Assembly (NCBI GenBank): GCA_017540565.1
Contig: JAFYAU010000008.1
Coordinates: forward strand, 1 to 64,000
Direction of reading: 5' to 3'
Source of the DNA: Oscillospiraceae bacterium
GTDB taxonomy: Bacteria > Bacillota > Clostridia > Oscillospirales > Oscillospiraceae
Length of the DNA stretch: 64,000 nucleotides
Shown here: positions 514 to 7,024 of the stretch, piece after piece
How positions within the stretch are numbered: position 1 is the stretch's first letter
Layout of the letters: the number at the start of each line of letters is the position of its first letter
Position numbers and translations under genes: made by a program
The notes under the pieces: generated by a model
The model's input: the letters and a program-made list of their open reading frames with translations, nothing else
What the model was told of the DNA's origin: nothing
Database searches by the model: none

Positions 514-1722
514 TCATTCCTCCTCGTAAGATTTATAATACAGCATGCAGTGGCAGAAGCCTTCGTAGTCCGGATCAGCGATCTGATCCCGAAATTCTCT
601 GCACATGCATTTGTTTTCCTCAGTACGTTCCAGACGGCAGGGACAGTACCCGCCCTTCTGTTTCAGCCCTTCCTTCACGGTCTTTACGATCTCGGGGTCC
701 GGATTCAGAGAGATCCTCGGTTTCAGCAGGGAACGGGCAGCCCGGACCATGGACGACAGGTTTTCCTCCGGCGTGTCCGGCGGAAGATCGCAGCCCGGAG
801 CAAGGATGAACCCGGTTGGAGCGGATAGGCACAGTTCCCGAGCCTTTTCGAACAGCGCATCCGGGGACATGGTAAGCATACACTGGACGGTATTCAGGTT
901 GCCGAAGATGGCGAAATCCCCCCTGGCCTGCTCGAATGCGAAAGCGAGAGGCACGTCGTCCATGCTGTAGATGTTGATGCCGCTGCCGACCAGCGGGGCG
1001 ACCCGCGGCGAACTGCTGCCGCAGATATGCAGCATGACGGGATTATCCTTGCTGCGGAATTCCCCGGCGATCCTTCGGATACGTGGCAGGGAGAAGCGCT
1101 CGAAGAACTCCTCGCTGATGAGATTTACAGCGGAAACGGGATCGGCAATGGAGATGCCTGTGGCGCCGTTATCCAGCTGGAAACGGAGAGCGGCAATGGT
1201 GATATCCGTGCACAGATCCAGAACCCTTTCCATTCCCTCGGGGTCCTCAGTCAGGAAGGTCATGAGGGTTTCCATCCCCATGAGTCCGGCTGCGGAAGTC
1301 AGCGGTCCGGCGGAAAAGGCCAGGATGGGTTTTCTGCCGGCCAGCCTGGTGTTCATTGCCTGCAGGAGACCGGCCAGTCTTCTGCACAGAGGACGCTCCG
1401 CTGCCCGGCGAAAAACGTCCTCCCCTGAAAGGCCGGAGGCATCGGCAGGACCGGTCAGAGGAGGCGTGTGTCCCGTCATGGCGGAGAGAGTTTCGCGTAC
1501 GGCTCCTGAGGCCAGCGGTCCCACATAGGTCATATCGGAGCCTATGCGGTCGTACTGGTCCAGGATGAAGGCGGCAGCCTCTTCTTCGGACATGGCGTAC
1601 AGATCCTGTTCCGTCATGCCGTTTCGTTTCAGGAACCAGTTGTAGCCGTCGAGGACGGCGACGGGGGGACGTGGTACGGGTTCGTACCGGATCGCTTTGC
1701 GTATCAGGTCAAAAGACGTCAT
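514..1722 (-). CDS. Corrinoid methyltransferase-like (UroD/MtaA family) protein fused to a ferredoxin:thioredoxin reductase domain
   Basis: A 402-residue two-domain protein. Residues about 1-335 are a UroD-superfamily barrel. It has HIC (H232, C234) and, 76 residues after C234, C311 in APGCDLPPDTP. This is the H-X-C-Xn-C zinc motif of MtaA/MtbA/CmuA-type methyltransferases rather than true uroporphyrinogen decarboxylase. Residues about 340-402 carry CPC (360-362), CMC (372-374) and CHCMLY (390-395), the six-cysteine signature of ferredoxin:thioredoxin reductase catalytic chains (4Fe-4S cluster plus redox disulfide). The middle pair is CMC instead of the usual CPC. The start is the ATG at 1722, preceded by GGAAGGAG; a GTG three codons earlier overlaps that RBS. 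trxA follows after 4 nt and cbiL (cobalamin synthesis) lies 99 nt upstream on the same strand. The substrate is unknown. That the fusion reduces thioredoxin is inference. Confidence 0.85.
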   Translation of the reverse strand: MTSFDLIRKAIRYEPVPRPPVAVLDGYNWFLKRNGMTEQDLYAMSEEEAAAFILDQYDRIGSDMTYVGPLASGAVRETLSAMTGHTPPLTGPADASGLSGEDVFRRAAERPLCRRLAGLLQAMNTRLAGRKPILAFSAGPLTSAAGLMGMETLMTFLTEDPEGMERVLDLCTDITIAALRFQLDNGATGISIADPVSAVNLISEEFFERFSLPRIRRIAGEFRSKDNPVMLHICGSSSPRVAPLVGSGINIYSMDDVPLAFAFEQARGDFAIFGNLNTVQCMLTMSPDALFEKARELCLSAPTGFILAPGCDLPPDTPEENLSSMVRAARSLLKPRISLNPDPEIVKTVKEGLKQKGGYCPCRLERTEENKCMCREFRDQIADPDYEGFCHCMLYYKSYEEE

Positions 1723-1821
1723 GTGGATCACTCCTTCCGGCTGTCATAGTATGGCGGCTCTTGCCATCGGACGGCATCTTTTCTATAATGGATGTATGGG
1801 AACCGCAAGAGAAGACGTGCG

Positions 1822-2523
1822 TCAGGTTTCGTAACCCGGTGCGTCCTCCTTCGCGATGATCAGGGAGAAATATCCGGACTGGTCCGGGATATCCTCAAGG
1901 CTGAGATAGCGTTTTTCATCCGGCATGCCGCAGTTTTCCACCATCATCACGCGGCGGCCGGTTTCCTGCAGTTTCTGTTTGACCTGTTCCATCTTCGTGC
2001 CGGATTTCATCAGCACGTAGTTTCCGGGCATATCCAGAGCGGCATCCAGCTTGTGAACGGCGGGGATGATATGCAGCGGCTGCGTCCACTCCGTCAGAGG
2101 CTGTCCGAGCGCGGCTGCCGCGGCGCAGAAGGAGGGGACGCCGCTGACCAGACGAATCTGGTATCCGTCTGCCTCCACTATGTGCTGCACGTAGGAAAAA
2201 GTGGAATAGACGGTTACGTCGCCGAGGGTGAGAAACACCACGTTTTTCCCGGTGTCCAGGACCTTTTCCAGTGTTTTTGCAGCAGCACGATGGTATTCTT
2301 CCTGCTTCCTGCGATCCATGACCATGGGGAAATTGAGGGAGAGAAGCGTCTTGTGTGCCAGTTCCGGAACCGTCTGGACCGCAATCAAATAGGCGGTGGT
2401 CTCCTTTGCCACGGGGCCGGGGAGGGCGATGACGTCATTTTCACGGATCGTCCGGATCGCCTTTACCGTCATCATTTCCGGATCGCCGGGACCTACGCCT
2501 ACGCCGATCAGTATTCCTGCCAT
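1822..2523 (-). CDS. cbiL: Precorrin-2/cobalt-factor II C20-methyltransferase
   Basis: A 233-residue SAM-dependent tetrapyrrole methyltransferase that methylates C20 of the corrin precursor in cobalamin synthesis. The N-terminal GVGPGDPE (9-16) is the family hallmark, and TLGDVTVYST followed by VSGVPSFCAAAA match the CobI/CbiL group. The start has a GGAGG RBS and is served by a good sigma-A-type promoter (2559-2587). No other cobalamin genes are in the window, so it is separated from its pathway. Its position upstream of a corrinoid-methyltransferase-like gene may be meaningful. Confidence 0.88.
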   Translation of the reverse strand: MAGILIGVGVGPGDPEMMTVKAIRTIRENDVIALPGPVAKETTAYLIAVQTVPELAHKTLLSLNFPMVMDRRKQEEYHRAAAKTLEKVLDTGKNVVFLTLGDVTVYSTFSYVQHIVEADGYQIRLVSGVPSFCAAAAALGQPLTEWTQPLHIIPAVHKLDAALDMPGNYVLMKSGTKMEQVKQKLQETGRRVMMVENCGMPDEKRYLSLEDIPDQSGYFSLIIAKEDAPGYET

Positions 2524-4889: not shown

Positions 4890-5303
4890 TCAGCCGCGCG
4901 CGGTTTTTTTCAGAAGATCGCTCAGACGCTTTCCGTAGAAATAATCGTGCGTAAGACGGTCGTATTCCGCCCACAGGGGAAGAGTCTCGCAGTCGGCAGC
5001 TCTCGGGCACGGAGCGGCTCCGTCAGCCAGGCAGGCGACAGAAGACAGGGAACCTTCCATCAGTTCGATGATCTCGCCGACGGGATATTCCTCGGGACTG
5101 CGGCAGAGCTTATAGCCTCCGCCTTTCCCGCTGGCCCCGACGAGAAGTCCGCCGCCGACCATATCCTTTACGATGATCTCCAGGTACTTTTTGGAGATCC
5201 CCTGCCGGGCGGCGATGTCTTTCAGGGGGATGTATGCCCCGTTGTCGTTTTCCGCCAGGTCGATCAGGACCCGGATCGCATAGCGACCTTTTGTTGAGAT
5301 CAT
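4890..5303 (-). CDS. Rrf2/IscR-family transcriptional regulator
   Basis: A 137-residue Rrf2 regulator that begins MISTKGRYAIRVLIDLA, with a winged helix (about 1-65). Its cysteine motif C-X7-C-X5-C (SVACLADGAAPCPRAADC) resembles the Fe-S ligands of IscR. The start is the ATG at 5303, preceded by GAAGGAGGGA; the frame is open further upstream but crosses the promoter. It is divergent from nifS-iscU and likely represses that operon and itself according to cluster status. Two matching dyads (5329-5352 and 5379-5403) overlap the two promoters and are candidate operators. Confidence 0.9.
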   Translation of the reverse strand: MISTKGRYAIRVLIDLAENDNGAYIPLKDIAARQGISKKYLEIIVKDMVGGGLLVGASGKGGGYKLCRSPEEYPVGEIIELMEGSLSSVACLADGAAPCPRAADCETLPLWAEYDRLTHDYFYGKRLSDLLKKTARG

Positions 5304-5328
5304 GGAAATCCCTCCTTCGGATTCTGCC

Positions 5329-5352
5329 CCTATTATACAGTGGGTAAATAGG
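5329..5352. promoter_or_regulatory. Candidate Rrf2 operator 1 (over the Rrf2 gene promoter)
   Basis: The dyad CCTATT-N12-AATAGG covers the -10 element of the minus-strand promoter. The right part GTGGGTAAATAGG matches GTAGGCGAATAGG in operator 2. Assignment to the neighbouring regulator is inference from position. Confidence 0.55.
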
Positions 5353-5360
5353 CAAAGCAA
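5332..5360 (-). promoter_or_regulatory. Promoter of the Rrf2 regulator gene
   Basis: On the minus strand, -35 TTGCTT (5360-5355), a 17-bp spacer and -10 TATAAT (5337-5332) lie about 29 nt upstream of the chosen start. Confidence 0.7.
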
Positions 5361-5378
5361 GAGGCTGAAGCATAAAAA

Positions 5379-5403
5379 CCTATTGACACGGTAGGCGAAT
5401 AGG
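5379..5403. promoter_or_regulatory. Candidate Rrf2 operator 2 (over the nifS promoter)
   Basis: The dyad CCTATT-N13-AATAGG spans the -35 and spacer of the nifS promoter. A regulator bound here should block RNA polymerase. Confidence 0.6.
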
Positions 5404-5411
5404 AATATAAT
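5383..5411 (+). promoter_or_regulatory. Promoter of nifS-iscU
   Basis: Consensus -35 TTGACA (5383-5388), 17-bp spacer, consensus -10 TATAAT (5406-5411). Such a strong promoter fits one held by a repressor. Confidence 0.85.
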
Positions 5412-5442
5412 TGTAACAGATAAGACGGAAGGAGCGCACAAC

Positions 5443-6627
5443 GTGATTTACGCAGATAACGCAGCCACAACAAAAATGAGCCGGACCGCCGTGGAAGCCA
5501 TGCTCTCGGTGCTCGGGGAATCCTGGGGAAACCCCTCGAGCCTGTATGAACACGGCCAGCGGGCGAAGGATGTACTGGAGGCCGCCCGGAAAGACGTGGC
5601 CGCCGTGATCGGAGCGGATCCGAGAGAGATCCTGTTCACCTCCGGAGGCAGCGAAGCGGACAACCAGGCGATCCGCTCCGCTGCCGCGCTGGGAGCGAAG
5701 TCTGGGAAGAAGCATATCATTTCCACTGCATTCGAGCACCATGCCGTTCTCCACACCCTGGAGAGGCTGAAGCAGGAGGGTTACGAGATCACCCTTCTGG
5801 ACGTTCACGAAAACGGGATCGTTCTGCCTGAGGAAGTGGAGGCCGCCATACGGGAGGATACCTGTCTGGTATCGGTCATGTACGCCAACAATGAGATAGG
5901 GACGATCCAGCCCATCCGGGAGATCGGGGCGGTATGCCGTGCAAGGAACGTGCTGTTCCACACGGACGCTGTGCAGGCGGTGGGACACATCCCGGTGAAC
6001 GTCGGAGAAGACAACGTCGACCTGCTCTCCGCTTCCGCCCATAAGTTCCACGGGCCGAAAGGCGTAGGCTTCCTGTATGCCAGAAAGGGCGTCAGGCTCA
6101 CCAATCTCATCGAAGGCGGCGCTCAGGAGCGCGGAAAGCGCGCCGGGACGGAAAACGTGCCGGGGATTGCCGCGATGGCGGCGGCCCTGAAAGAGGCAGA
6201 TGCGGCGAGAGAGGCAAACGCCGCCCGGCTCACGGTGGTCAGAGACCGGCTGATTGCGGAACTGAAGCAGATCCCTCACTCGGCCCTGAACGGGGACGAG
6301 AAATGCCGGCTGCCGGGGAACGTGAACTTCTGTTTCGAAGGGATCGAGGGAGAATCTCTGCTGCTTCTTCTTGATGACAAAGGTATCGCGGCATCGTCCG
6401 GAAGCGCCTGTACATCCGGCTCCCTGGATCCGAGCCATGTTCTTCTGGCGATCGGACGGGTACATGACGTGGCCCACGGATCGCTGAGGCTGAGCATCGG
6501 CGAGGACATCACGGATGAGCAGGCGGACACCATCGTGCGTTCCGTGAAGGAGGTCGTGGAATACCTCCGCGGCATTTCTCCCATCTGGAGAGACCTGACA
6601 TCCGGAAAAAAGGATTTCATTCTGTGA
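5443..6627 (+). CDS. nifS: Cysteine desulfurase
   Basis: A 394-residue class-V PLP enzyme that takes sulfur from cysteine for iron-sulfur cluster assembly. The PLP lysine is K201 in SASAHKFHGPKG. The catalytic cysteine is C323 in SSGSACTSGS, in the short loop of the NifS/IscS class. The start is GTG at 5443 after GGAAGGAG. iscU follows after 13 nt and an Rrf2 regulator is divergent upstream, giving a minimal Clostridia-type ISC unit. It is called nifS by similarity to the clostridial group; iscS would be equally fair. Confidence 0.95.
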   Translation: MIYADNAATTKMSRTAVEAMLSVLGESWGNPSSLYEHGQRAKDVLEAARKDVAAVIGADPREILFTSGGSEADNQAIRSAAALGAKSGKKHIISTAFEHHAVLHTLERLKQEGYEITLLDVHENGIVLPEEVEAAIREDTCLVSVMYANNEIGTIQPIREIGAVCRARNVLFHTDAVQAVGHIPVNVGEDNVDLLSASAHKFHGPKGVGFLYARKGVRLTNLIEGGAQERGKRAGTENVPGIAAMAAALKEADAAREANAARLTVVRDRLIAELKQIPHSALNGDEKCRLPGNVNFCFEGIEGESLLLLLDDKGIAASSGSACTSGSLDPSHVLLAIGRVHDVAHGSLRLSIGEDITDEQADTIVRSVKEVVEYLRGISPIWRDLTSGKKDFIL

Positions 6628-6640
6628 GGAGGCAGCGAAA

Positions 6641-7024
6641 ATGGCTTTATACAGCGAAAAAGTGATGGATCATTTCCGCAATCCGCGGAACGTAGGTATC
6701 ATTGAGGACGCCAACGGCATCGGAGAGGTCGGCAACGCAAAGTGCGGAGATATCATGAAAATGTATCTGAAGATCGAGGATGATATCATCCGGGACGTGA
6801 AATTCGAGACGTTCGGCTGCGGAAGCGCCATCGCTTCCAGTTCCATGGCGACGGAGCTCATCAAGGGAAAGCCCGTGTCGGAGGCAATGAAGCTGACCAA
6901 TCAGGCGGTGGCCGAGGCACTGGACGGCCTGCCGGCCTATAAGATGCACTGCAGCGTCCTGGCGGAGGAAGCGATCCAGTCCGCGCTGGAGGACTACAGG
7001 AAGAGGACTGGAAAAGAAGAATAA
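6641..7024 (+). CDS. iscU: Fe-S cluster assembly scaffold IscU/NifU-like
   Basis: A 127-residue scaffold with the three ligand cysteines C35 (in AKCGD, with D37), C60 (FGCGSA) and C104 (MHCSVLAEE). It receives sulfur from the desulfurase encoded 13 nt upstream and assembles the nascent cluster. There is no C-terminal NifU domain. The unit ends with a terminator at 7069-7102. No hscA, hscB or fdx follow, as is usual in Clostridia. Confidence 0.94.
   Translation: MALYSEKVMDHFRNPRNVGIIEDANGIGEVGNAKCGDIMKMYLKIEDDIIRDVKFETFGCGSAIASSSMATELIKGKPVSEAMKLTNQAVAEALDGLPAYKMHCSVLAEEAIQSALEDYRKRTGKEE

Follow-up and report, generated by a model that had tools for sequence, protein, structure and literature searches.

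A fused gene upstream of thioredoxin

The window, a 64,000-nucleotide stretch of an Oscillospiraceae genome (contig JAFYAU010000008.1), carries on its minus strand a single open frame (514–1722, stop codon at 514–516) that encodes both an MtaA-like URO-D domain and a short catalytic domain of ferredoxin:thioredoxin reductase (FTR), as seen in the open reading frame listing and in the sequence itself. The predicted product is 402 amino acids long. The listing begins the frame at a GTG (1731), which gives the 405-amino-acid reading to which the Pfam residue ranges below refer. Because this GTG lies inside a perfect AAGGAG Shine–Dalgarno sequence (1731–1736, minus strand), read directly 8 nucleotides before the ATG at 1722, and because unfused URO-D relatives align with the fusion protein from the same MTS start, the true start is almost surely the ATG.

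Four base pairs downstream, on the same strand, is a thioredoxin gene (201–509) with a WCGPC active site (TIGR01068, 114.9 bits against a cut-off of 96.8). Its Shine–Dalgarno sequence, GAGGAGG, lies within the final codons of the fusion gene, and fusion and thioredoxin genes are directly adjacent in the same order in all three fusions that we found (this window, L002 and L003).

Directly upstream of the fusion gene is cobI/cbiL (1822–2523, minus strand). We considered it as a hint to function and rejected it, as cobI is not a neighbour of the fusion in L002 or L003; a promoter and terminator scan returned no minus-strand promoter that decides whether cobI and the fusion gene are co-transcribed. 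Within about 5 kb of the fusion, at 4890–7024, are genes that we named by reading their sequences as an Rrf2-type regulator and NifS-like and NifU-like genes of Fe–S cluster assembly.

Composition of the two halves

The N-terminal half (residues 1–334; 721–1722, minus strand) matches the URO-D family with an E value of 8.8e-45 (PF01208, 153.6 bits against a gathering cut-off of 23.9, residues 8–334 of the longer reading). Its best sequence match in the PDB is 4ay7, an MtaA-type methyltransferase of Methanosarcina mazei (3.7e-20), and a Foldseek search with the whole predicted model gave 4ay8, also of URO-D fold, as its first match (7.0e-09). Three predicted zinc ligands, H232 and C234 in the motif H-I-C (1021–1029, minus strand) and C311 in LAPGCDLPP (790–792, minus strand), align to H246, C248 and C325 of the 4ay7 chain (H237, C239 and C316 in the published MtaA numbering). 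All three are invariant in the six orthologues aligned, and the H-X-C-X76-C pattern of the preliminary description is exact, with 76 residues between the two cysteines. The zinc-site region has a pLDDT below 50 in the predicted model of the fusion protein, too low a confidence for the model to show how the FTR cluster packs against it. A His-Cys-Cys set is the zinc sphere reported for S-methyltransferases of the URO-D superfamily (PMC10418091).

Against the curated MtaA/CmuA model (TIGR01463) this half scores 141.4 bits, below the cut-off of 235.4, and we describe it on sequence grounds as MtaA-like, not as a filed MtaA member. Uroporphyrinogen decarboxylase (HemE) was rejected, with 57.1 bits for TIGR01464 against an equivalog cut-off of 302.95. 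By analogy, the domain would be expected to act as a thiol- or selenol-directed methyltransferase with a methyl-corrinoid donor. No corrinoid protein gene adjoins the fusion in the window, L002 or L003. Corrinoid methyl transfer is plausible in this organism, since contig C13 of the window genome encodes a free corrinoid protein next to a methyl-THF:corrinoid methyltransferase, and the genome has, in addition, two RACo-like activases and another 14 URO-D homologues. A scan of viral contigs for further URO-D relatives found none.

The C-terminal half (residues 335–402, 68 amino acids; 517–720, minus strand) is assigned to the FTR/FDR catalytic domains by Pfam, AlphaFold2 (AF2) and structure matches. 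FeThRed_B (PF02943) covers residues 340–400 of the longer reading (E value 6e-5) and exceeds its curated cut-off of 22 bits both in the fusion (23.5) and for the FTR domain alone (27.9), as it does in all 17 members of the short FTR family tested; recognition of this family is marginal, with scores just above the cut-off. The preliminary description had placed a six-cysteine motif, CPC-X9-CMC-X15-CHC, about 50 residues beyond the zinc site, and we find exactly this motif 48 residues after C311 (547–645, minus strand; C360, C362, C372, C374, C390 and C392). All six cysteines align with those of canonical bacterial FTRs in a profile–profile comparison (97.6% probability, E value 3.7e-12), and the fused FTR part is 60–93% identical to 53 homologues. 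Modelled alone, the domain reaches a pLDDT of 94.5 (AF2), and its predicted fold matches 4tpu, 7pwe, 1dj7 and FTR–thioredoxin complexes; the Z scores, 5 to 6, are modest alone, and all eight entries among the matches listed are FTR or FDR structures, with which the motif agrees. Pfam finds just URO-D and FeThRed_B in the fusion protein, which has no rubredoxin domain of the kind present in 4tpu. By analogy with these enzymes, the C-terminal half would carry a [4Fe–4S] cluster, take electrons from ferredoxin and pass them to thioredoxin.

Short FTRs in Clostridia and the origin of the fusion

Of 394 genomes from the same order, 115 (about 30%) have a short FTR, as do 58 of the 391 genomes in a sample of the class; both surveys are samples, in which rarer fusions elsewhere may be missed. 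Short FTRs are normally separate genes of 64–70 codons (L005–L079), with products 60–80% identical to the fused domain, and every member that we read has the pattern CPC-X9-CxC-X15-CHC. The methionine of the middle motif, which had been taken for an unusual replacement of proline, is typical of these proteins: it is present in 95 of 101 rows, the others having isoleucine, leucine or valine. Canonical bacterial FTRs differ in cysteine spacing and include a CPC-X9-CPC class. In two FTRs of that class (L139 and L140) the last CxC motif contains a TGA codon in frame, which may encode selenocysteine; NCBIfam includes an FtrB selenoprotein family.

Enough flanking sequence is available for 64 short-FTR loci, and in 40 of these a thioredoxin gene lies on the FTR strand no more than 150 bp away, upstream or downstream; no other recurrent partner appears in more than six. 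Most of these thioredoxins have WCGPC. Because this linkage is conserved, the cysteine set is complete and the fold agrees, the FTR module of the fusion should reduce the thioredoxin encoded at 201–509. The thioredoxin could also be reduced by a second route, as the window genome has a TrxB-type reductase (L158, contig C38 of G000, 1498–2406), which at 341 bits falls just under the TIGR01292 cut-off of 343.

The URO-D/FTR fusion is present in the window genome and in two further species of its genus (L002 in G002, 88% identity; L003 in G001, 67% identity). None was found outside this genus (g1) in a locus scan and in the order and class samples; the scan relied on six peptide patterns taken from the query, and rarer fusions may be missed. 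Searches of the literature for a URO-D/FTR fusion found nothing. A sequencing error or assembly artefact is rejected, as the same junction occurs in three assembled species and both halves are under purifying selection: between the window and L002, dN/dS is 0.094 in the URO-D half and 0.084 in the FTR half. From these values we conclude that both halves are functional. In each of the three genomes the fused copy is the sole short FTR detected.

The two halves also occur apart in the genus. URO-D is unfused in G003 and G004, the latter with its FTR on a different contig, where the FTR gene adjoins an apparent cobalamin-biosynthesis cluster (L110, 2489–6000). The genome of L004 has an unfused URO-D orthologue and no detectable short FTR; several genomes are incomplete, which makes such absences weak. 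Unfused URO-Ds stop at the fusion junction or no more than a few residues from it; the junction consists of a four-residue linker followed by Pro335 where separate FTRs have their initiator methionine. The most likely origin is that a URO-D gene came to lie before an FTR–thioredoxin gene pair and lost its stop codon, although the postulated ancestral order of unfused URO-D, FTR and thioredoxin genes was seen in no genome surveyed. Monophyly of the fused URO-Ds is not rejected in the URO-D tree (p-AU 0.096). As the tree does not settle a single origin, fusion followed by loss in L004 is possible.

FTR domains had been described as normally separate small proteins, which does not always hold: glutaredoxin is fused to one in 7pwe, and L229 (contig C1 of G1038, 1397–2113, plus strand) in a genome of the same taxonomic class, joins an NrdG-like radical-SAM activase to a C-terminal FeThRed_B domain. 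In L229 the FeThRed_B score is 22.2 bits against the cut-off of 22 and the NrdG-like part is below the NrdG cut-off; this architecture would fit an FDR that feeds anaerobic ribonucleotide reductase. Long frames over FTR genes in G630, G502, G555 and G648 were rejected as fusions after the sequences were read; they look like separate FTR genes before which the frame happens to stay open.

A probable tethered methyltransferase and thioredoxin reductase

We hypothesize that the gene encodes a bifunctional protein, formed when a stop codon was lost and an S-methyltransferase-type enzyme became tethered to the ferredoxin-linked reductase that serves the adjacent thioredoxin, and we consider this account probable. 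The N-terminal half would be a His-Cys-Cys zinc enzyme that transfers a methyl group, with a corrinoid protein on one side and a thiol or selenol on the other. In the C-terminal half, electrons from ferredoxin would pass to a [4Fe–4S] cluster and a redox-active cysteine pair, and the pair would reduce the thioredoxin encoded directly downstream. The score of the URO-D half below the MtaA/CmuA cut-off, the lack of an adjacent corrinoid gene and the presence of a TrxB-type reductase count against this account. According to a statement cited in PMC6262447, a thioredoxin-like protein is reduced by the FDR of Methanosarcina, which serves a class III ribonucleotide reductase.

A closer coupling of the two activities is conceivable but rather unlikely. 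The fused FTR, directly or through thioredoxin, could keep the methyl-accepting thiol, its disulfide form or the cysteine ligands of the zinc reduced, so that methyl transfer would track the ferredoxin pool. Retention of the tether in three species, with selection on both halves, is what such gating would lead one to expect; a disulfide reductase is chemically sensible beside a His-Cys-Cys zinc enzyme that acts on a thiol (PMC10418091), and FTR-type domains are fused elsewhere to redox partners (7pwe) and to the NrdG-like protein. Yet L004 carries its URO-D orthologue without a detectable short FTR, the two genes are on separate contigs in G004, and this URO-D lineage never lies beside a separate FTR in 75 other loci. 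Each module is found without the other in some species, and this speaks against an obligatory coupling. The earlier suggestion that methyl transfer, or reactivation of the corrinoid partner, is redox-coupled through ferredoxin is not supported: the conserved neighbour of the FTR is thioredoxin, in the 40 loci as in the three fusions.

At the other extreme, the fusion may be a neutral accident, in which a stop codon was lost and two independent halves gained nothing from their tether. The perfect end-to-end join with its four-residue linker and the restriction to three species of one genus would suit such an event. We regard it as improbable, since the fusion has been retained since the divergence of species at 67% identity, although neutral tethers can persist too. 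It is possible that the tether brings a benefit, as it is kept in three species.

The attachment of an Fe–S domain to a corrinoid-type methyltransferase might also suggest that the domain activates the corrinoid partner reductively, in place of RamA or RACo, and would take Co(II) to Co(I) with electrons from ferredoxin. This is very improbable, as two RACo-like activases are already encoded in the genome, the domain retains the complete FTR disulfide motif and lies before a thioredoxin gene, and separate FTRs as a rule have no corrinoid neighbours.

The URO-D/FTR architecture offers a testable link between an MtaA-like methyltransferase and the ferredoxin–thioredoxin system of gut anaerobes. 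The frequency of short FTRs, in about 30% of the sampled genomes of the order, bears on how thioredoxin is reduced in these anaerobes. Redox gating, if true, would tie one-carbon and sulfur metabolism to the redox state of the cell.

The N-terminal half shares the URO-D fold and the aligned His-x-Cys...Cys positions with MtaA of M. mazei (4ay7 and 4ay8), with the soluble CoM methyltransferases and with MtaA-like proteins (Mlps); it differs from MtaA in scoring under the MtaA/CmuA cut-off, in having no adjacent corrinoid protein and in its FTR domain. The C-terminal half has the fold and all the cysteine motifs of the FDR of Methanosarcina acetivorans (4tpu), which is fused to rubredoxin, and of the glutaredoxin–FDR of Desulfotalea psychrophila (7pwe); these are likewise fusion domains that need no variable subunit, whereas here the partner is a methyltransferase, the spacing is X9/X15 and the domain has about 68 residues. 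The catalytic chain of cyanobacterial and plastid FTR (1dj7 and 7c2b), which works on thioredoxin, has the same fold (Z about 5.3) and the six-cysteine set. Plant-type FTR has the motif CPC-X16-CPC-X8-CHC and forms a dimer in which a variable chain is the second subunit, in contrast to the fused domain with its CPC-X9-CMC-X15-CHC. The short Clostridia FTRs have the same motif and are usually adjacent to thioredoxin but encoded separately; their fusion to a methyltransferase is confined, among the genomes surveyed, to a single genus.
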